Part shown: positions 9,724-19,777 of the stretch, piece after piece
How the letters are laid out: each line of letters begins with the position of its first letter
Position numbering within the stretch: the stretch's first letter is position 1
From: Anaerobium acetethylicum
GTDB taxonomy: Bacteria > Bacillota > Clostridia > Lachnospirales > Lachnospiraceae
DNA: 64,000 bases
Direction: 5' to 3'
Assembly (NCBI RefSeq): GCF_900096945.1
Contig: NZ_FMKA01000001.1
Coordinates: 124,001-188,000, forward strand
The notes under the pieces: generated by a model
The model's database searches: none
Told to the model about the DNA's origin: nothing
Seen by the model: only the letters and a program-made list of their open reading frames with translations
Program-made: the position numbers and the translations under genes

Positions 9724-12351
9724 ATGTCAAAAATACGAATACATGAGTTAGCGAAGCAGATAGATAAGTCCAGCAAGGACATTATAAATATATTGAAGGA
9801 TTCAAATGTGGAGGTTCTGAATCACATGAGCACACTGACCGATGAGAACGTGGATCTTGTGAAAAAGGCATTTACAAAAACGGAGACAAAACCAGTTCAG
9901 AGCACGGAAAGCAATGTACCTGAAGAAAAGAAGTCAAACATTTCACAGGTTTATCATCCACAGAACAGCAGGGCTGGAGTAAGACCACAGGGCGGACAGT
10001 CTCAGGGACAAAGACCGGCACGGGGCGGACAGACCCAGGGACAGAGACCGGCTCAGGGCGGACAGACCCAGGGACAGAGACCGGCTCAGGGCGGACAGAC
10101 CCAGGGACAGAGACCGGCTCAGGGCGGACAGACTCAGGGACAGAGGCCGCAGGGCGGACAGACTCAGGGACAGAGACCTCAGGGCGGACAGACTCAGGGA
10201 CAGAGACCTCAGGGCGGACAGACCCAGGGACAGAGACCTCAGGGCGGACAGACCCAGGGACAGAGACCTCAGGGCGGACAGACCCAGGGACAGAGACCGC
10301 AGGGCGGACAGACCCAGGGACAGAGGCCACAGGGCGGACAGACTCAGGGACAGAGACCGCAGGGCGGACAGACCCAGGGACAGAGGCCACAGGGCGGACA
10401 GACTCAGGGACAGAGACCGCAGGGCGGACAGACTCAGGGACAGAGGCCAGCACAGGGCGGACAGGCTCAGACAGGTGGCAACCGTCCAAACAGCAATCGT
10501 CCGAACAGCAAAAGACCAAACCAGGGCAGAAACAATTACAGAGGAAACAGGAATGCACAGCCACAGCAGCAAGCAGCACCAGTTGTAAAAGAAGAGGTGG
10601 TCAAGACAATCGCATTGCCTGAAATGCTTACAATAAGGGATCTTGCTGAAGCCATGAAAATGCCTGCAGCGGTTCTTGTCAAGAAGCTTTTCCTGCAGGG
10701 AACAATGGTAACTGTCAACCAGGATATTACTTATGAAACTGCAGAAGAAATCGCACTCGAATTCAACTTTATTGTTGAACCTGAAGTAAAGATAGATGTA
10801 ATAGAAGAACTCCTGAAAGAGGAAGAAGAAGATGAAAGCAAAATGGTTTCAAGACCTCCTGTAATCTGTGTAATGGGCCATGTTGACCATGGAAAGACTT
10901 CCCTTCTTGATGCAATCAGAAAGACTCACGTTACAGACAAGGAAGCCGGCGGAATCACACAGCATATTGGTGCTTATGTAGTTAGCCGCGGCGGACAGAA
11001 GATCACCTTCCTTGATACGCCGGGACATGAAGCCTTCACTTCAATGCGAATGAGAGGTGCAAACTCAACAGATATCGCAATCCTTGTAGTCGCAGCAGAT
11101 GATGGTGTCATGCCGCAGACAGTTGAAGCGATTAACCATGCAAAAGCGGCAGGAATCGAGATCATTGTTGCGGTAAACAAAATCGATAAACCAAGTGCAA
11201 ATATTGAAAGAGTTAAACAGGAACTTACAGAATACGAATTGATTGCTGAAGACTGGGGCGGAAGCACGATTTTTGTACCGGTATCTGCACATACAGGTGA
11301 AGGAATCGAACAGCTTCTTGAAATGATCCTTCTGACCGCAGAAATGTGTGAACTGAAGGCTAATCCTAAGAGAACAGCAAGAGGTCTTGTAATCGAAGCT
11401 GAACTTGACAAAGGAAAAGGACCTGTTGCAACCATACTTGTGCAGAAAGGTACCCTGAGAGTCGGAGATCCTATAGCTGTCGGACCATGCCACGGCAAAG
11501 TCCGCGCGATGGTTGATGACAAGGGAAGAAGAATCAAAGAAGCAGGACCTTCAACGCCAGTTGAAATTTTAGGGCTTAATGATGTGCCTAATGCAGGCGA
11601 AATATTCGTAGTAACAGAAAATGACAAAGAAGCAAGAAACTTTGCAGAGACATTTATTTCTGAAGGCAGAGAAAAACTTCTTGATGATACAAAAGCAAAA
11701 CTTTCATTAGATGGCTTATTCTCACAGATCCAGGCTGGAAATGTGAAGGAATTAGGAATTATTGTTAAAGCAGACGTTCAGGGTTCGGTTGAAGCCGTAA
11801 AACAGAGTCTTGTAAAACTTTCTAATGAAGAAGTCATTGTTAAGGTAATCCACGGCGGCGTTGGCGCAATCAATGAATCAGACGTTATGCTTGCATCAGC
11901 ATCTAACGCAATCATAATCGGTTTCAATGTTCGTCCGGATCCTATGGCAAAGAGCTTCGCAGACCGTGAAAAAGTTGACTTGAGGTTATACAAAGTAATC
12001 TATAACGCAATCGAAGATGTGGAATCAGCCATGAAGGGTATGCTTGAACCGATATTTGAAGAGAAAGTACTCGGACATGCAGAAATCAGACAGACATTTA
12101 AAGCTTCCGGAATTGGAACGATTGCAGGTTCTTATGTACTCGATGGCCTTTTCCAGAGAGGCTGCAGCGTAAGAGTTACCAGAGACAAGGAACTTATTTT
12201 CGAAGGACCTCTTGCTTCATTAAAGAGATTCAAGGATGACGTTAAAGAAGTAAAAGCAGGATATGAATGTGGTCTTGTATTTGAAAAATTCAATGACGTT
12301 AAAGAACTTGATATGGTGGAAGCTTATACAATGGTAGAAGTGCCAAGATAG
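9724..12351 (+). CDS. infB: Translation initiation factor IF-2 with long repeat linker
   Basis: GTPase that brings initiator tRNA to the ribosome. The 875-residue protein has an N-terminal IF2N domain (about 1-55), a long low-complexity Gly/Gln/Arg-rich linker (about 60-285), a second IF2N domain (about 295-345), the G domain (G1 GHVDHGKTS at 384-392, [12 protein letters not shown]), and beta-barrel domains to the end. The linker holds 15 near-identical copies of [10 protein letters not shown]. This part is disordered and variable in length across species, while the catalytic part is conventional. AGGTAGTAAGT upstream gives the start at 9724. Confidence 0.96.
9988..10449 (+). repeat. 15-copy tandem repeat inside infB
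   Basis: Fifteen in-frame units encode (A)[10 protein letters not shown]: one 30 bp unit, four 33 bp units carrying an extra Ala codon, then ten 30 bp units. The last four 30 bp units form a 60 bp higher-order repeat (10321-10380 and 10381-10440 are almost identical), which points to recent slippage or unequal exchange. Silent differences (GGACAGACT/GGACAGACC; GAGGCC/GAGACC) mark individual units. Confidence 0.95.
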
Positions 12352-13945: not shown

Positions 13946-14846
13946 CGGAATAATTAACGTATACAAGGAGAAAGGCTTCACATCCCACGATGTGGTTGCA
14001 AAACTTAGAGGTATACTGAGACAGAAGAAAATCGGCCATACAGGAACACTGGATCCTGATGCAGAAGGCGTGCTTCCGGTCTGCCTTGGCAAAGGAACGA
14101 AACTCTGCGATATGCTGACTGACAAAGACAAAATCTATGAGGCGACCCTCCTGCTTGGAATTACAACAGATACCCAGGATACTTCAGGGAAAATCCTGCA
14201 GGAATCAGCGGTTTCTGTATCAGAAGACCAGGTAAGGGAAGCCATTATGGGCTTTGTCGGAGACTATGACCAGATTCCGCCGATGTATTCAGCATTAAAG
14301 GTAAATGGTAAAAAACTGTATGAGCTGGCAAGGGAAGGCGTGGAAATCGAACGCCAGCCAAGACGCCTTCATATATATGATATCACAATCGAAGAGATCA
14401 GCCTGCCGAGAGTAAGGATGAGCGTATCATGTTCAAAAGGCACCTACATCAGGACGCTCTGCCACGATATCGGGCATAAGCTTGGAACCGGCGGGTGCAT
14501 GGAGAAGCTTCTCCGTACAAAAGTGGGACGTTTTTTGATAGTGGACAGCCTGAAGCTTAATGAAATTGAAGAACTGAGAGACCAGGACGGGCTGGAGGGA
14601 TGCATCATACCAATTGACGAGATGTTCACGGACTATCCTGCCGTGACTGTTTCAGAGGAATTCAATAAATTGCTTTACAATGGAAATGCGTTCCTCGAGG
14701 AACATATCCTGAAAAGGGAAGGGACAGAAGGCGCGGACAGGACCATCAGGGTATACGATGAAGAAGCCAGTTTCATCGGCGTCTATAAGTTTGATGAAGA
14801 AAAGAGCCAGTACAGGCCGGTGAAGATGTTTTTTGGGAGTAATTAG
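13938..14846 (+). CDS. truB: tRNA pseudouridine-55 synthase TruB
   Basis: Isomerises U55 of tRNA T-loops. The 302-residue protein begins with the family's typical INGIINVYKEKGFTSHDVV and has the catalytic Asp39 in GHTGTLDPDAEGVLP, followed by the C-terminal PUA-like region. I place the start at GTG 13938: AGGAG stands seven bases upstream and the reading then begins as in homologues. It overlaps the nrnA stop by eight bases (GTGATTAA), and ribF begins directly after its stop, so the three genes are tightly coupled. Confidence 0.95.
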   Translation: MINGIINVYKEKGFTSHDVVAKLRGILRQKKIGHTGTLDPDAEGVLPVCLGKGTKLCDMLTDKDKIYEATLLLGITTDTQDTSGKILQESAVSVSEDQVREAIMGFVGDYDQIPPMYSALKVNGKKLYELAREGVEIERQPRRLHIYDITIEEISLPRVRMSVSCSKGTYIRTLCHDIGHKLGTGGCMEKLLRTKVGRFLIVDSLKLNEIEELRDQDGLEGCIIPIDEMFTDYPAVTVSEEFNKLLYNGNAFLEEHILKREGTEGADRTIRVYDEEASFIGVYKFDEEKSQYRPVKMFFGSN

Positions 14847-15797
14847 ATGAATTATATTGCGGACACCACGAATTTTAAAATTGAAGAAAAGACAGCAGTA
14901 ACACTTGGAAAATTTGATGGGCTCCATAAGGGCCATCTGAAGCTGATCAAGAAGATTCTGACAAAACGCGAACAGATGAAGACTGTGATTTTCACGTTTT
15001 CTATCGCTCCTGCCGAACTCCTGAATCATAAGTCTGCCGAACTGCTTTTAACAAATGAGGAGCGCAGGACATTTGTGGAACAGTTAGGGCTGGATTATCT
15101 TGTCGAATATCCTTTCGACATGAAGATAGCGTCCATGGAGCCTGAAACCTTCATTAAGGAAATCCTTGTGGATAAGCTCAATGCCGGATATATTGCGGTT
15201 GGAACTGATTTCAGATTCGGCCATAAAAGAAAAGGCGACTACAGACTTCTTGAAAAACTAAGCAAAAAGTATGGATTTATTCTTGAAGTGGTCGATAAGG
15301 AGATGTTTGAAGGTGAGGAGATCAGCAGCACTCTTGTCAGGAAGGAAGTCAGCCTTGGAAATATGGAAAAGGTTAACTGCCTTCTGGGGCATCCTTTTTC
15401 CGTAATCGGAGAAGTTCTCCATGGCCGTAAAATCGGCAGGACTATTGGAATGCCGACAACAAATCTTGTTCCGCCCTGCCGCAAGCTTCTCCCGCCTAAC
15501 GGTGTCTATGCGTCGAAAACAGTTATCGATGGCAGAAGCTACATCGGCGTTACGAACATAGGCCACAAACCTACCGTAGGCAGGGAAATTGAAAAAGGCG
15601 TCGAGACATATATTTTTGATTTTGAGGGAAACCTTTATGAAAAAATAATAGAGGTTCAGCTGTTCCGGTTTGAACGTCCGGAGGAAAAATTCGAATCGCT
15701 GGATGCCCTGAAAGAACAGCTGGAGCGTGATATCCAGTTCAGCAGGGACTATTTCGTTACTGCTCACAGCACGAACAGTAACCCTGTTTCCAGATAA
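14847..15797 (+). CDS. ribF: Bifunctional riboflavin kinase/FAD synthetase
   Basis: Converts riboflavin to FMN and FMN to FAD. The nucleotidyltransferase domain (1-170) shows LGKFDGLHKGH and GTDFRFGHKRKGD; the flavokinase domain (180-300) shows GRTIGMPTTNL and PPNGVYAS. The 316-residue length is typical, but the last 13 residues (VTAHSTNSNPVSR) lie in a dispersed palindrome (15755-15796) and are not family-like, so the natural C-terminus seems to have been replaced by repeat sequence. The ATG follows the truB stop with no gap; GGGAG within truB serves as ribosome binding site. Confidence 0.94.
   Translation: MNYIADTTNFKIEEKTAVTLGKFDGLHKGHLKLIKKILTKREQMKTVIFTFSIAPAELLNHKSAELLLTNEERRTFVEQLGLDYLVEYPFDMKIASMEPETFIKEILVDKLNAGYIAVGTDFRFGHKRKGDYRLLEKLSKKYGFILEVVDKEMFEGEEISSTLVRKEVSLGNMEKVNCLLGHPFSVIGEVLHGRKIGRTIGMPTTNLVPPCRKLLPPNGVYASKTVIDGRSYIGVTNIGHKPTVGREIEKGVETYIFDFEGNLYEKIIEVQLFRFERPEEKFESLDALKEQLERDIQFSRDYFVTAHSTNSNPVSR
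15755..15796 (+). repeat. Dispersed palindromic element (family iii) in the ribF 3' end
   Basis: GTTACTGCTC (15756-15765) and GAACAGTAAC (15773-15782) form an inverted repeat with one mismatch, followed by a GTTTC and AGATAAAA segment. The same core and right flank occur in the palindrome at 19850-19913, so both belong to one family. This copy supplies the last codons and stop of ribF. Confidence 0.6.
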
Positions 15798-15822
15798 AAA
15801 AGGTTAACATAATTATTAATGG

Positions 15823-15851
15823 TTGACAATAATACTCCTGATTGTTATAAT
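15823..15851 (+). promoter_or_regulatory. Consensus sigma A promoter of the NlpC/P60 gene
   Basis: TTGACA (15823-15828), exactly 17 bases, TATAAT (15846-15851): full consensus. Transcription would start near 15858. Its spacer carries one arm of a long inverted repeat whose other arm covers the ribosome binding site. Confidence 0.9.
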
Positions 15852-15904
15852 AACTTGGTAATATATTTAACAATTTCGTAACATTTAAAGAACAATCAGG
15901 AGTA
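15833..15904 (+). promoter_or_regulatory. Inverted repeat joining promoter spacer and ribosome binding site
   Basis: TACTCCTGATTGTT (15833-15846) is the exact reverse complement of AACAATCAGGAGTA (15891-15904). The left arm lies between -35 and -10; the right arm contains the AGGAG of the NlpC/P60 gene. RNA made from this promoter lacks the left arm, while RNA reading through from ribF contains both and would sequester the ribosome binding site. Confidence 0.7.
15867..15883 (-). promoter_or_regulatory. Candidate WalR (YycF) box
   Basis: On the minus strand the sequence reads TGTTAC-GAAAT-TGTTAA, an exact match to the published WalR consensus TGTWAH-N5-TGTWAH. It covers about +9 to +25 of the predicted transcript. 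WalRK controls peptidoglycan hydrolases in Bacillus and relatives; a site downstream of the start would favour repression. Confidence 0.5.
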
Positions 15905-15908
15905 AAAA

Positions 15909-16961
15909 ATGAAGAAAAGAATTATGAAAGCCTGTGGAGCATTGCTAATAGCAGGCGCTTTAACATCTGGGATGGGCATGAATGCAAAGGCAGATTTGAT
16001 AGATAAACTGAGTGTTGTTCCATATGCCGGTGTGGCAGCTACGTTGAACGAATACTATGGTTCGGCAGCGCTGAAATCAGCGGTAAATCTGGATGCAGTC
16101 ACTGCAGCACCTGTTATTTCAATCGTCAGCGGCTATACAAACCTTGGCGTATCCAAGGCTGATGAGGTCAACGTCAGAGAGGCGGCATCCGAAGCAGCTG
16201 CCATTGTCGGCAGACTGAGCGTGAATGACGGCTGTGAAATCCTTCAGGTAACAGGAGAATGGTCCTGGATCCAGTCTGGAAAAGTAACGGGATTTGTAAA
16301 GAATGAATTTCTGTATACCGGAGCCGAAGCCAATGTGGCAGCAGCAGGGGCGCTTGTTTCAAAAGCGACTGTAAACACCGCTACGCTTAAGGTGAGAGAG
16401 CAGGCCAACGTTGAGTCCGGCGTTCTCAGCCTTGTTGCGGCAGGCCAGGAACTGCAGGTTTTAGAAGACCAGGGCGAATGGATCAAGATTTCGATAAACG
16501 GCGGCGAAGGATATGTTTCGAAGCAATATGTGACCATGTCAAGCTCGCTATCAACAGCAGCGACTATGACCGAGCTACAGTACGGCGAAGGCGTTTCTGA
16601 TGTGAGAGCATCGATGGTCGAATATGCAAAGCAGTTTCTCGGAAACAGATATGTATGGGGCGGAACAAGCCTTACAAATGGAACGGACTGTTCCGGATTC
16701 ACCATGTCAATCTACAAGCATTTTGGGATTTCGATCAACAGGACATCGCGTGAGCAGGTAAAAAATGGAACGAGGATTGATGTGGCAGATGTTAAGCCGG
16801 GAGATCTTATTTTCTACGCCAGAGGCGGTACCATCGAACATGTTGTTATGTACATAGGGAATGGACAGGTAATACATGCAAGTTCTGCAAAGACAGGAAT
16901 CAAGATTTCTGAAACGTATTACAGGACACCTGTAGCTGCTGTCAGAATCATTAACGATTAA
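15909..16961 (+). CDS. Secreted SH3-NlpC/P60 cell-wall endopeptidase
   Basis: Exported peptidoglycan hydrolase of 350 residues. A signal peptide spans about 1-28 with cleavage after NAKA. Two bacterial SH3 domains follow (about 78-137 and 150-205), each with a VNVREAAS/LKVREQAN-like start, then an NlpC/P60 domain (about 235-350) with the catalytic set Cys261 (NGTDCSGF), His311 (TIEHVVMY) and His323 (QVIHAS). Such enzymes cleave the gamma-D-Glu/diamino acid bond of stem peptides. It has a full-consensus promoter, a candidate WalR box and an unusual promoter-RBS inverted repeat, suggesting tight control. Exact bond cleaved and role in growth or separation are inferred. Confidence 0.92.
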   Translation: MKKRIMKACGALLIAGALTSGMGMNAKADLIDKLSVVPYAGVAATLNEYYGSAALKSAVNLDAVTAAPVISIVSGYTNLGVSKADEVNVREAASEAAAIVGRLSVNDGCEILQVTGEWSWIQSGKVTGFVKNEFLYTGAEANVAAAGALVSKATVNTATLKVREQANVESGVLSLVAAGQELQVLEDQGEWIKISINGGEGYVSKQYVTMSSSLSTAATMTELQYGEGVSDVRASMVEYAKQFLGNRYVWGGTSLTNGTDCSGFTMSIYKHFGISINRTSREQVKNGTRIDVADVKPGDLIFYARGGTIEHVVMYIGNGQVIHASSAKTGIKISETYYRTPVAAVRIIND

Positions 16962-17013
16962 TAAGTATAAAATGGTGCCAGAATCATTAATGATCAAATA
17001 GGAATAAAATGGT
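16943..17013 (+). repeat. Imperfect tandem duplication across the NlpC/P60 stop codon
   Basis: CAGAATCATTAACGAT at 16943 recurs as CAGAATCATTAATGAT at 16979, and the following AATAAAATGGT-like segment is also repeated, giving a unit of about 36 bases. The first copy contains the stop codon, the second is non-coding. Confidence 0.6.
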
Positions 17014-17041
17014 TTACATGGCAACGCCCTTATGATATACT
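17013..17041 (+). promoter_or_regulatory. Promoter of rpsO
   Basis: TTTACA (17013-17018), 17 bases, TATACT (17036-17041). The leader of about 85 bases holds the palindrome ATCAGCTGAT (17057-17066) and TTAGTATA (17097-17104), which is complementary to the -10 region. S15 often represses its own mRNA through the leader; no known S15 motif was recognised. Confidence 0.7.
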
Positions 17042-17132
17042 AATCAAGTATGAGAAATCAGCTGATATTCAGAAATTGGACACTCCGACCTTTTTCTTAG
17101 TATACGGCGGTTAAAAACAAGGAGGAAATACA

Positions 17133-17399
17133 ATGATAGCAAAAGACAAAAAAACAGCCATTATGGCAGAATTCGCAAGAACACCTGGCGACACTGGTTC
17201 ACCAGAAGTTCAGATCGCTGTTTTAACAGCAAGGATCACAGAATTAACTGAGCATTTAAAAGTGCATCAGAAAGATCATCATTCAAGAAGAGGTCTTCTC
17301 AAAATGGTAGGACAGAGAAGAGGATTACTTGCTTATTTAAAGAAAACTGATATTGAAAGATACCGTACTTTAATCGAACGTCTTGGAATCAGAAAGTAA
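17133..17399 (+). CDS. rpsO: 30S ribosomal protein S15
   Basis: Primary 16S rRNA-binding protein of the 30S central domain. The 88 residues match the universal length, with [32 protein letters not shown] and the C-terminal [17 protein letters not shown] precedes the ATG by seven bases. It has its own promoter and a strong terminator, with pnp next, the same rpsO-pnp order as in many bacteria. Confidence 0.97.
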
Positions 17400-17410
17400 T
17401 TCTTAGCTAT

Positions 17411-17451
17411 ATGAAAGAAAGAGGCGGAGTAATCCGCCTCTTTCTCTTCAT
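17411..17451 (+). terminator. Strong intrinsic terminator after rpsO
   Basis: AGAAAGAGGCGGA-GTAA-TCCGCCTCTTTCT forms a 13 bp stem that extends with one bulge to ATGAA/TTCAT. The 3' arm is itself T-rich (CTCTTTCTCTT). Some read-through into pnp is likely, as no clear pnp promoter was found. Confidence 0.85.
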
Positions 17452-17466
17452 GTATCAAAGGCGTTG

Positions 17467-17627
17467 AAGTGGCGAATCCACTTTATTTGGCATCGATTGA
17501 TTTATCTGGCAGAGGACTATTTCCGAGACCACTGAAAAGCTTATTTTACACAAAGGCCAAGTAGGCTTTTCAGTAGTTTCGGCATCTTCTGCCAGCAGAT
17601 TCACTATAGGGATTGTTTCGGCAATCC
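17467..17627 (+). promoter_or_regulatory. Structured pnp leader with long double-stranded stem
   Basis: Three stems precede pnp. First, AAGTGG/CCACTT (17467-17483). Second, a 90-base hairpin: CTGGCAGA (17506-17513) with TCTGCCAG (17588-17595), an internal loop, then an 18 bp stem 17523-17540/17565-17582 with one G-U and one C-A. Third, GGATTG/CAATCC (17610-17627). The long stem resembles the RNase III-cleaved leader through which E. coli PNPase represses its own mRNA; similarity of mechanism is inferred. Confidence 0.65.
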
Positions 17628-17689
17628 GGACATTATGAACGGCGAATACCTGATGGTAAGTGCCGTGGAAAATTAAAGGAGATAAGACT

Positions 17690-19777
17690 ATGTTTAAGAG
17701 TTTTTCAATGGATTTAGCCGGAAGACCGCTTGTTGTTGAAATCGGCAGAGTGGCAGCGCAGGCAAACGGAGCAGCATTAATGCATTATGGGGACACTGTT
17801 GTATTATCAACTGCAACTGCATCAGAAAAGCCAAGGGAAGGTATCGATTTTTTCCCATTAAGCGTTGAATACGAAGAAAAATTATATTCAGTAGGAAGAA
17901 TCCCAGGAGGATTCAATAAAAGAGAAGGTAAAGCTTCCGAAAATTCTGTTCTTACATCAAGGGTTATCGACAGACCGATGAGGCCTTTATTCCCAAAAGA
18001 CTACAGAAATGACGTTACATTAAACAACCTCGTAATGAGCGTTGACCAGGACTGCAGCCCTGAGCTTACAGCTATGTTAGGTTCTGCAATCGCAACCGTA
18101 GTTTCAGACATCCCATTCGACGGACCTACAGCTGCAACAATGGTAGGTATGATTGATGGAGAAATGATCTTCAACCCTACAAATGCGCAGAAGGCAGTTT
18201 CAGACCTTGCCCTTACAGTTGCATCAACAAGGGATAAAGTAATCATGATCGAAGCAGGCGCTAATGAAATTGATGAAGATAAGATGATTGAAGCTATCTT
18301 TGCTGCACATGAACTCAACCAGAAGGTTATCGCTTTCATTGACACGATCGTAGCTGAATGCGGAAAGCCAAAACATGCATATACAAGCTGTGAAGTTCCT
18401 GCAGATCTTTATGATGCCATGGTTGCATTCATCACTCCTGAAGCAATGGAAACTGCTGTTTTCACAGATGAAAAGCAGGTAAGAGAAGAAAATATCAGAG
18501 TAATCAAAAACAGCCTGGAAGAACATTTTGCAGAAGTTAATCCGGAATGGATTCCGTTTATCGAAGAAGCTGTTTATAAATTTCAGAAGAAGACTGTACG
18601 TAAAATGATCTTAAAGGATCAGAAACGTCCAGACGGAAGAGCAGTAACTGAAATCAGAAAATTAGCTGCAGAAGTGGACCTTCTTCCAAGAGTTCATGGA
18701 TCAGGCATGTTCACAAGAGGACAGACTCAGGTCATGACAATCACAACACTTGGCACATTAACTGATGCACAGAGACTGGACAGTCTTGATGAAAATGAAA
18801 AGTCAAAGAGATACATGCACCATTACAACTTCCCTTCATACTCGGTAGGTGAAACAAAACCTTCAAGAGGACCGGGAAGACGTGAAATCGGACACGGAGC
18901 CTTAGCAGAAAAAGCACTCGTTCCTGTTCTTCCATCAGAAGAAGAATTCCCATATGCAATCCGTACTGTTTCGGAAATCATGGAATCAAACGGATCTACT
19001 TCACAGGGAAGCATCTGTGCATCTTCATTATCATTGATGGCTGCCGGCGTTCCAATCAAGGCTGCTGTTGCAGGTATTTCAGTAGGGCTTGTAACTGGAG
19101 ATACTGATGACGATTACATCGTACTTACAGATATCCAGGGGCTTGAAGACTTCTTTGGAGACATGGACTTCAAGGTTGCCGGCACCCATAAGGGAATCAC
19201 AGCAATCCAGATGGATATCAAGATCCACGGCCTTACAAGAAAGATTGTTGAAGAAGCAATCAGGAAAACCAAGACTGCAAGAACATACATCTTAGATGGA
19301 GTAATGAATCCTGTTATCGCGGAGGCAAGGCCGGAAGTTGGAACATATGCTCCGAAGATCATCCAGATTCAGGTTGATCCTGCGAAAATCAGCGAAATCA
19401 TCGGACAGAAGGGCAAGACAATCAATAAGATTATTGATGAGACAGGCGTTAAGATCGACATCACTGATGACGGAAAAGTATCCGTTTGTGGCGTTGAAGC
19501 TGAAGGAATCAACAGGGCTCTTGAAATCATCAAGACAATTACCCAGGACATTGAAGAGGGACAGATATTCACGGGCAAGGTCGTAAGAATCATGCAGTTC
19601 GGCGCTTTCGTAGAACTCGCGCCAAACAAGGACGGACTTGTTCATATATCAAAGCTCGCGAAAAACAGAGTCGAAAAAGTTGAAGATGTTGTCAATATCG
19701 GCGATATTGTTACCGTAAAAGTTATTGAAGTCGACAAGATGGGCAGAATCAACTTAAGCATCAAGGACGTGGAATAG
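17690..19777 (+). CDS. pnp: Polyribonucleotide nucleotidyltransferase (PNPase)
   Basis: Phosphorolytic 3'-5' exoribonuclease of the RNA degradation machinery. The 695-residue protein has two RNase PH domains (about 1-215 and 310-540) around a helical domain, then a KH domain (PAKISEIIGQKGKTINKI) and an S1 domain (FTGKVVRIMQFGAFVEL). ATG 17690 has AAAGGAGA seven bases upstream and starts MFKSFSMDLAGRPL as in homologues. It follows rpsO and carries a 5' leader with a long stem, suggesting autoregulation. A GC-rich terminator follows. Confidence 0.96.
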   Translation: MFKSFSMDLAGRPLVVEIGRVAAQANGAALMHYGDTVVLSTATASEKPREGIDFFPLSVEYEEKLYSVGRIPGGFNKREGKASENSVLTSRVIDRPMRPLFPKDYRNDVTLNNLVMSVDQDCSPELTAMLGSAIATVVSDIPFDGPTAATMVGMIDGEMIFNPTNAQKAVSDLALTVASTRDKVIMIEAGANEIDEDKMIEAIFAAHELNQKVIAFIDTIVAECGKPKHAYTSCEVPADLYDAMVAFITPEAMETAVFTDEKQVREENIRVIKNSLEEHFAEVNPEWIPFIEEAVYKFQKKTVRKMILKDQKRPDGRAVTEIRKLAAEVDLLPRVHGSGMFTRGQTQVMTITTLGTLTDAQRLDSLDENEKSKRYMHHYNFPSYSVGETKPSRGPGRREIGHGALAEKALVPVLPSEEEFPYAIRTVSEIMESNGSTSQGSICASSLSLMAAGVPIKAAVAGISVGLVTGDTDDDYIVLTDIQGLEDFFGDMDFKVAGTHKGITAIQMDIKIHGLTRKIVEEAIRKTKTARTYILDGVMNPVIAEARPEVGTYAPKIIQIQVDPAKISEIIGQKGKTINKIIDETGVKIDITDDGKVSVCGVEAEGINRALEIIKTITQDIEEGQIFTGKVVRIMQFGAFVELAPNKDGLVHISKLAKNRVEKVEDVVNIGDIVTVKVIEVDKMGRINLSIKDVE

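Follow-up and report, generated by a model that had tools for sequence, protein, structure and literature searches.

A promoter spacer complementary to the downstream ribosome-binding site may insulate an NlpC/P60 hydrolase gene of Anaerobium acetethylicum from read-through

A cell-wall hydrolase gene that sits within a run of housekeeping genes and has its own strong promoter raises the question of how its expression could be confined to that promoter if transcripts also arrive from the gene upstream. We examined such a gene of the NlpC/P60 type (hereafter nlpC) in a 64,000-nucleotide stretch of the A. acetethylicum genome (the window). The gene order is infB-rbfA-nrnA-truB-ribF-[nlpC]-rpsO-pnp, in which infB, rbfA, nrnA, truB, rpsO, and pnp were named by eye from their translations. 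The ribF gene is co-directional with nlpC, the intergenic region spans 111 nt, and a scan of positions 14000-17500 lists nothing resembling a terminator from the end of ribF up to the nlpC promoter. An Rfam scan of 14800-17700 returned six matches, all under the gathering score and none within 15402-16931. Elsewhere in the gene run, the infB-like protein (window 9724-12351) carries a long run of repeats near its N-terminus. The features of the locus are:

14847-15797, plus strand: ribF, riboflavin kinase/FAD synthetase (Pfam FAD_syn and Flavokinase), the end of the upstream run and the source of read-through RNA
15823-15828, plus strand: −35 hexamer TTGACA (promoter scan)
15833-15846, plus strand: 5′ arm, complementary to the ribosome-binding site (anti-RBS), TACTCCTGATTGTT, in the spacer, its final base being the first base of the −10 hexamer; expected solely in read-through RNA
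15846-15851, plus strand: −10 hexamer TATAAT, preceded by TG at 15843-15844
15858, plus strand: predicted transcription start, 7 nt past the −10 hexamer
15858-15863, plus strand: GTAATA half-box upstream of the WalR-type dyad; similar sequences are found in many relatives
15867-15883, minus strand: WalR-type box TGTTACGAAATTGTTAA, a 12/12 match with TGTWAH-N5-TGTWAH, located in the loop that separates the arms
15891-15904, plus strand: 3′ arm AACAATCAGGAGTA, over the Shine-Dalgarno sequence (SD) AGGAG at 15898-15902
15909-16961, plus strand: NlpC/P60 cell-wall hydrolase gene, with ATG at 15909 (Pfam NLPC_P60 7.6e-27; SH3_3 2.9e-21, two stretches)
17013-17041, plus strand: promoter-like site, 10/12, preceding rpsO (17133-17399)

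The two arms form an inverted repeat of 14 nt that is 100% complementary, with 44 nt between the arms and 58 bp between their centers. It is the sole inverted repeat in 15600-16100 according to a repeat search with a 12-nt minimum. The left arm takes up most of the 17-nt spacer of the TTGACA/TATAAT promoter, which scores 12/12 and is the only site with such a score listed in 14000-17500. Both the coordinates and the score agree with the initial annotation of this DNA, which had described a perfect 14-bp repeat with one arm in the spacer of a full-consensus promoter and a second arm that overlaps AGGAG ahead of the NlpC/P60 gene. As the repeat has a 44-nt loop and no U-run, it does not appear among the listed intrinsic terminators, which are defined by a GC stem with a short loop and a U-run. 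By eye, the start of the NlpC/P60 gene looks like a signal peptide. A weaker promoter-like site (TTAACA-18-AATAAT, 10/12) is located just upstream, at 15804-15833, and RNA initiated from it would hold only part of the 5′ arm.

RNA folding predictions give the two possible transcripts of nlpC very different ribosome-binding sites (RBSs). In the read-through RNA, the SD is unpaired with a probability of about 0 and the opening of 15896-15911 is predicted to cost 12.4-12.5 kcal/mol, whereas in the RNA from the local promoter the SD is open and the predicted cost of opening the same region is 1.1-1.3 kcal/mol. When the 5′ arm of the read-through RNA was shuffled 200 times, the cost averaged 3.5 kcal/mol (sd 0.56) and reached 5.2 kcal/mol at most. 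The folds as a whole are less distinctive: the z-score of the 181-nt read-through RNA is a modest −2.2, with 4 of 200 shuffles folding as well or better, and that of the local RNA is −0.6. The folding comparison proposed in the initial annotation thus came out as envisaged at the level of prediction, with the SD hidden in the read-through RNA and free in the promoter-proximal one.

With slightly better than even confidence, we read the locus as a T4 gene e-like insulation of a WalR-type-controlled hydrolase gene that is located inside a housekeeping operon. In this model, the strong promoter of nlpC would be controlled through the WalR-type box in its start region, and RNA that reads through from ribF, presumed to be ample, would escape this control. 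In such RNA, the spacer (15833-15846) would pair over 14 bp with the RBS (15891-15904) and translation of the hydrolase would be shut, whereas local RNA starting at about position 15858 would lack the 5′ arm and stay open for translation. Selection would also maintain the pairing in this species.

A chance origin of the 14-nt match is unlikely. When the 111-nt intergenic region was dinucleotide-shuffled 20,000 times, an inverted repeat of at least 14 nt turned up in 6 of the shuffled sequences. We also compared the 85 nt upstream with the RBS for the 359 SD-preceded genes of the window and a further 400 kb of the same contig (464 kb, nlpC included), and the longest perfect complement measured 14 nt at nlpC and 3-8 nt at all other genes. 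The duplex of the nlpC arms has an energy of −21.9 kcal/mol, and the lowest of 3,540 cross-pairs between 60 promoter regions and the RBSs of other genes has −21.4 kcal/mol. These figures uphold the earlier assertion that a 14-base match is improbable by chance, with the caution that the nlpC repeat was chosen from a scan. The improbability is also tempered by similar repeats on the same contig: perfect repeats of at least 14 nt with 20-100-nt loops number one in the window, which is the nlpC repeat, and four in the 400 kb. We rejected the arms as a genome-wide regulator motif. Exact copies of the arm string occur only twice genome-wide, in each case at nlpC, and 62 further places match it with one or two mismatches; these 64 places compare with 21 for a reversed control, an excess that we attribute to the SD-like content of the string.

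The sequence of the arms is not maintained in relatives. At 61 other NlpC/P60 promoters, the longest perfect complement between promoter and RBS was 4-7 nt (33-60% identity in the matched stretch), and this perfect-stretch measure revealed no excess in these 61 relatives (mean shuffle p 0.58). The same-genome paralogue L071 is without the device (−0.6 kcal/mol). The comparison with related species that had been suggested as a check therefore spoke against conservation of the arms, the source genus being represented in it by one genome. The arm sequence appears to be unconserved outside the genus, and at such a distance a lineage-specific device would remain compatible with this result. The initial idea that read-through RNA hides the ribosome site consequently stands in part: it holds in computation and is in keeping with the lack of a terminator-like site before the promoter, and it is weakened by the unconserved arms and by the paralogue.

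After the null result of the perfect-stretch measure, we adopted a measure based on opening energy and then applied it to fresh data. A promoter was scored as hiding its RBS if the energy of opening the RBS region (−14 to +3) was at least 4 kcal/mol higher in the read-through RNA than in the local RNA and if shuffling of the upstream part gave a p of at most 0.05. This rule was fixed before the fresh loci were fetched. The discovery set began with 75 loci, each represented by a single NlpC match (tblastn E ≤ 1e-35). Removal of three L071 duplicates gave 72 distinct loci, and ten of these, in which no promoter reached 10/12, were also left out, so that 62 promoters including that of the window remained (L028 was without a start). 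Fresh set 1 comprised 80 regions in list order, with G079, G076, G355, G295, and G304 skipped (contig end or cut gene); 18 of the 80 were dropped as they had no such promoter, and 62 were retained. Fresh set 2 was added under the same rule after the result of set 1. Its 80 regions were hand-picked roughly in list order (72 and 8 from two match lists), 23 were dropped and 57 had a promoter of at least 10/12, and many of the genes in it are paralogues from genomes that had contributed before. In set 1, 95 control promoters entered the fold test and 88 remained in a recount with another ORF filter, which was used for the box comparison described below. The starts of genes, the promoters, and the transcription starts were all predicted (L364 has a TTG start).

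In the discovery set, 8 of the 61 NlpC/P60 promoters other than that of the window were scored as hiding (9/62 with the window), and the rule picked out 4 of 55 control promoters from the source genome itself and none of 36 full-consensus controls (37 promoters minus one NlpC paralogue). We also replaced the upstream part of each NlpC/P60 gene with those of other NlpC/P60 genes. For this, two near-identical loci (L079 and L035) were additionally left out, and 11 of the remaining 60 genes exceeded all 30 replacements, where about two were expected. Across the discovery data, an excess was seen with duplex energies as well as with opening energies. Hiding recurred in fresh set 1, in 9 of 62 NlpC/P60 promoters versus 5 of 95 others (one-sided Fisher 0.046), and in fresh set 2, in 8 of 57 versus 4 of 88. 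The pooled fresh sets gave 17/119 versus 9/183 (0.0047). Most control promoters are weaker, 10/12 matches, and with promoters of at least 11/12 only, the pooled figures were 15/106 versus 2/55 (0.031). In set 1 taken by itself, the comparison restricted to at least 11/12 was non-significant (7/59 versus 2/29, p 0.38), as was a rank-sum comparison of the energy differences (0.14). By this rule, the RBS is hidden in read-through RNA for roughly one NlpC/P60 gene in seven and for one in twenty of the others, an about three-fold excess; 155 of 180 NlpC/P60 promoters do not hide it.

The position of the 5′ arm varies. In 19 folds (ten from the discovery set, including the window and L042, which failed the shuffle threshold, and nine from set 1), it was found mainly in the spacer in six, in the −10 hexamer or between it and the start in five, and either overlapping the −35 hexamer or farther upstream in eight. 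In the fresh sets, hiding was scored for 15 of 95 NlpC/P60 genes that follow a co-directional gene and for 1 of 23 that follow a divergent one, plus one gene without a neighbor in the fetched stretch. A shuffle p of at most 0.05 taken alone displayed no such contrast (24/95 versus 5/23), and these counts are small. Among fresh loci with a co-directional neighbor within 450 nt, an upstream terminator-like site was present at 0 of 13 that hide the RBS and at 7 of 76 others, numbers too few to be conclusive about terminators as an alternative means of insulation.

Two control genes have strong pairing of their own. L296, a control gene that starts with MHSYDKQYLELIEEILTKGYYDTNR and is thymidylate-synthase-like by eye, has a 10/12 promoter and exhibited the largest read-through hiding tested (+18.75 kcal/mol). 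In the source genome (G000 C50, around 516803, minus strand), a gene that starts with MKIETIFEKKKPVLSFEIFP and resembles methylenetetrahydrofolate reductase by eye has a duplex between its RBS and upstream region of −24.0 kcal/mol, stronger than that of nlpC though imperfect. It is one of the four own-genome controls scored as hiding (+6.2 kcal/mol) and perhaps has a riboswitch-like leader.

Within other genera, chosen because one member had been scored as hiding (g14, g15, g16, g121, and g198), the pairing is either general or patchy. All four g14 species examined hide the RBS, with 10/12 promoters and opening energies of 11.5-13.8 kcal/mol versus 4.6-5.7 kcal/mol in the local RNA. The NlpC protein of one of them, L006, is 77-80% identical to those of the other three. 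Its RBS is hidden by its own upstream region (13.4 kcal/mol) but not by those of the other g14 species (6.1-6.7 kcal/mol; local 4.9). Conversely, the RBS of L356 is hidden better by the other three upstream regions (14.5-15.9 kcal/mol) than by its own (11.5 kcal/mol), and re-matching in g14 is therefore demonstrated for one lineage and not throughout. Both g121 species (59% identical) hide the RBS, with 10.5 and 9.8 kcal/mol for their own pairs and 7.3 and 5.2 kcal/mol for swapped ones. The proportion is one of five species in g15, one of two in g16, and one of two in g198, where an ACTCCTG/CAGGAGT pair is nonetheless present in both species. Among the seven newly analyzed members, L354, L355, and L364 were scored as hiding, and L357, L359, L361, and L362 were not.

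The conserved DNA site at this locus is the WalR-type box between the arms, which did not figure in the initial annotation. Scored against the B. subtilis WalR consensus as quoted in the available part of PMC9210968, an exact TGTWAH-N5-TGTWAH box is carried by 118 of 181 NlpC/P60 promoters (window included) versus 1 of 176 others. In 95 promoters the exact match follows the −10 hexamer at a distance of up to 45 nt, and in 23 it precedes the −35 hexamer by up to 40 nt; none has the box in both places at exact match, and seven do at 11 of 12. GTAAYA boxes commonly follow the promoters of NlpC/P60 relatives. The shorter pattern TAAYA-N5-GTAAYA alone is unenriched genome-wide (16 matches versus 33 for the reversed control); the box is informative only at promoters.

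These counts suggest that WalR or a like regulator may act at the nlpC promoter. In C. difficile, as reported in the available part of PMC9210968, overproduction of WalR lowers expression of the NlpC/P60 gene cd630_27680 about 4-fold, and two WalR sites are predicted some 100 nt ahead of its start codon. In B. subtilis, yocH is activated and iseA repressed by WalR, according to the available part of PMC7299342. The nlpC promoter resembles these WalR-controlled promoters in having a TGTWAH-N5-TGTWAH box at an NlpC/P60 gene, and differs in that its putative box is just downstream of the −10 hexamer and is accompanied by an extra half-box. A further difference is the RBS-hiding repeat, as none is described for WalR-controlled promoters in the portions of PMC9210968 and PMC7299342 that were available. 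The ribF-linked genes themselves are not uniform: the box is upstream in L010, L075, L078, and L085 and downstream in L013, L031, L032, and L072. A change in box placement could possibly convert a given gene from a repressed into an activated version, or the reverse.

A separate element was noticed in the leaders of L004, L010, L075, L094, L209, L220, L238, and L085, which have in common a promoter-proximal terminator-like hairpin, AACAGTAG...CTACTGTT, followed by a T-run. These leaders belong to upstream-box promoters (among the seven that were scanned, L220 has an 11/12 box and the other six an exact one; L085 was assigned by eye). No Rfam match is listed over the hairpin in L004, L010, L075, L085, or L094, and the shared hairpin is a candidate new attenuator.

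How the repeat itself is to be explained depends on the weight given to these observations. The insulation mechanism is supported by the over-representation in the family and by the finding that every g14 and g121 species examined has such a pairing, in part through re-matched sequence. It is weakened by the unconserved arms, by L071, by the mixed results in g15, g16, and g198, and by the 155 promoters that fail the rule. The main rival, which we judge rather unlikely, is a neutral coincidence, in which the match is due to chance or to a quasi-palindrome (template-switch) mutation that copied the RBS into the weakly constrained spacer, so that the RNA folds but the fold is unselected. Unconserved arms and a paralogue without the device speak for such an origin, as do the four long-loop perfect repeats of at least this length in 400 kb and the selection of the site from a scan; moreover, the arms include sequence that is constrained for other reasons, namely TTGTTATAAT in the promoter and AGGAG. 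A coincidence is harder to reconcile with the rarity of the match, both in shuffles, where any placement counted, and among genes, where 1 of 359 has it and the next best reaches 8 nt, and with the about three-fold family excess in fresh data and the pairing by differing sequences in every g14 and g121 species examined.

Three other explanations appear far less probable. That the promoter is merely WalR-type-controlled and the repeat is a passenger is a very improbable reading, which draws on the frequency of the exact box at NlpC/P60 promoters but leaves the excess of RBS-hiding read-through folds unexplained; box control and insulation may both hold. We consider it highly improbable that the hairpin of the read-through RNA is a site for a double-strand RNase or a 3′-end former that splits ribF from the nlpC-rpsO mRNA. 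The intergenic RNA does contain a 14-bp helix, yet its loop is 44 nt long and no U-run follows, and in relatives that hide the RBS it is the hiding that recurs while helix length, loop, and the place of the 5′ arm vary. The least probable explanation is a DNA-level one, raised as an alternative in the initial annotation, in which the arms are operator halves for looping or for a dimeric repressor. The arms lie on either side of the −10 hexamer and the start, with a center-to-center distance of 58 bp, but they are not palindromic themselves (by eye), the 61 other promoters have no comparable pair, the genome holds only the two exact copies, and the conserved candidate site is the WalR-type box between them. 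This alternative consequently found no support.

The transposase genes of IS10 and IS50 are shielded from outside transcription by a fold of the read-through RNA over the ribosome site. Read-through RNA folded onto the ribosome site is also what is predicted for nlpC, while IS10 and IS50 differ in being mobile elements in which the arm comes from the element end. The closest parallel, already drawn in the initial annotation, is gene e (lysozyme) of phage T4, for which the available part of PMC3014915 reports that long early transcripts hide the RBS, cutting lysozyme synthesis 100-fold, and that transcripts from the late promoter, from which the 5′ strand is absent, undergo translation. The same source names further cases of the gene-e-type leader, namely soc, 49, I-TevI, and mobE of Aeromonas phage Aeh1. 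The parallel stands for the layout, in that the SD of nlpC is predicted to lie in a stable helix of the longer RNA and the proximal RNA lacks the 5′ strand, and it extends to the product, a cell-wall-degrading enzyme. The 100-fold effect on translation belongs to T4 (PMC3014915, available part), and the block at nlpC is a predicted one. Moreover, nlpC is a gene of a bacterial chromosome with a housekeeping-type promoter instead of early and late phage timing, and its 5′ arm is embedded in the spacer between −35 and −10, with a transcription-factor-type box in the 44-nt loop. In the full-text literature searched, with subscription papers mostly outside it, no paper was found that by its title or the start of its abstract describes promoter-borne RBS hiding for a cell-wall hydrolase or bacterial equivalents.

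Combining these findings, we tentatively suggest, at somewhat less than an even chance, that WalR-type-controlled NlpC/P60 genes in the family of A. acetethylicum and its neighbors repeatedly gain, lose, and regain an anti-RBS strand in or near their own promoter (in the spacer, in the −10 hexamer, or just upstream of the −35 hexamer). The promoter DNA would double as an RNA insulator, and the pairing would be kept by altered matching sequences and hence be invisible to conservation. If promoters do carry the anti-RBS strand, control of transcription would be coupled to translation, with only the RNA from the regulated start being read. A regulated autolysin gene could in this way reside in a translation operon with no need of a terminator ahead of it (terminator-like sites precede 7 of 89 co-directional NlpC/P60 loci). 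It would further mean that read-through seen by RNA-seq does not imply expression of the hydrolase, and that the promoter of such a gene provides a compact layout for an insulator.
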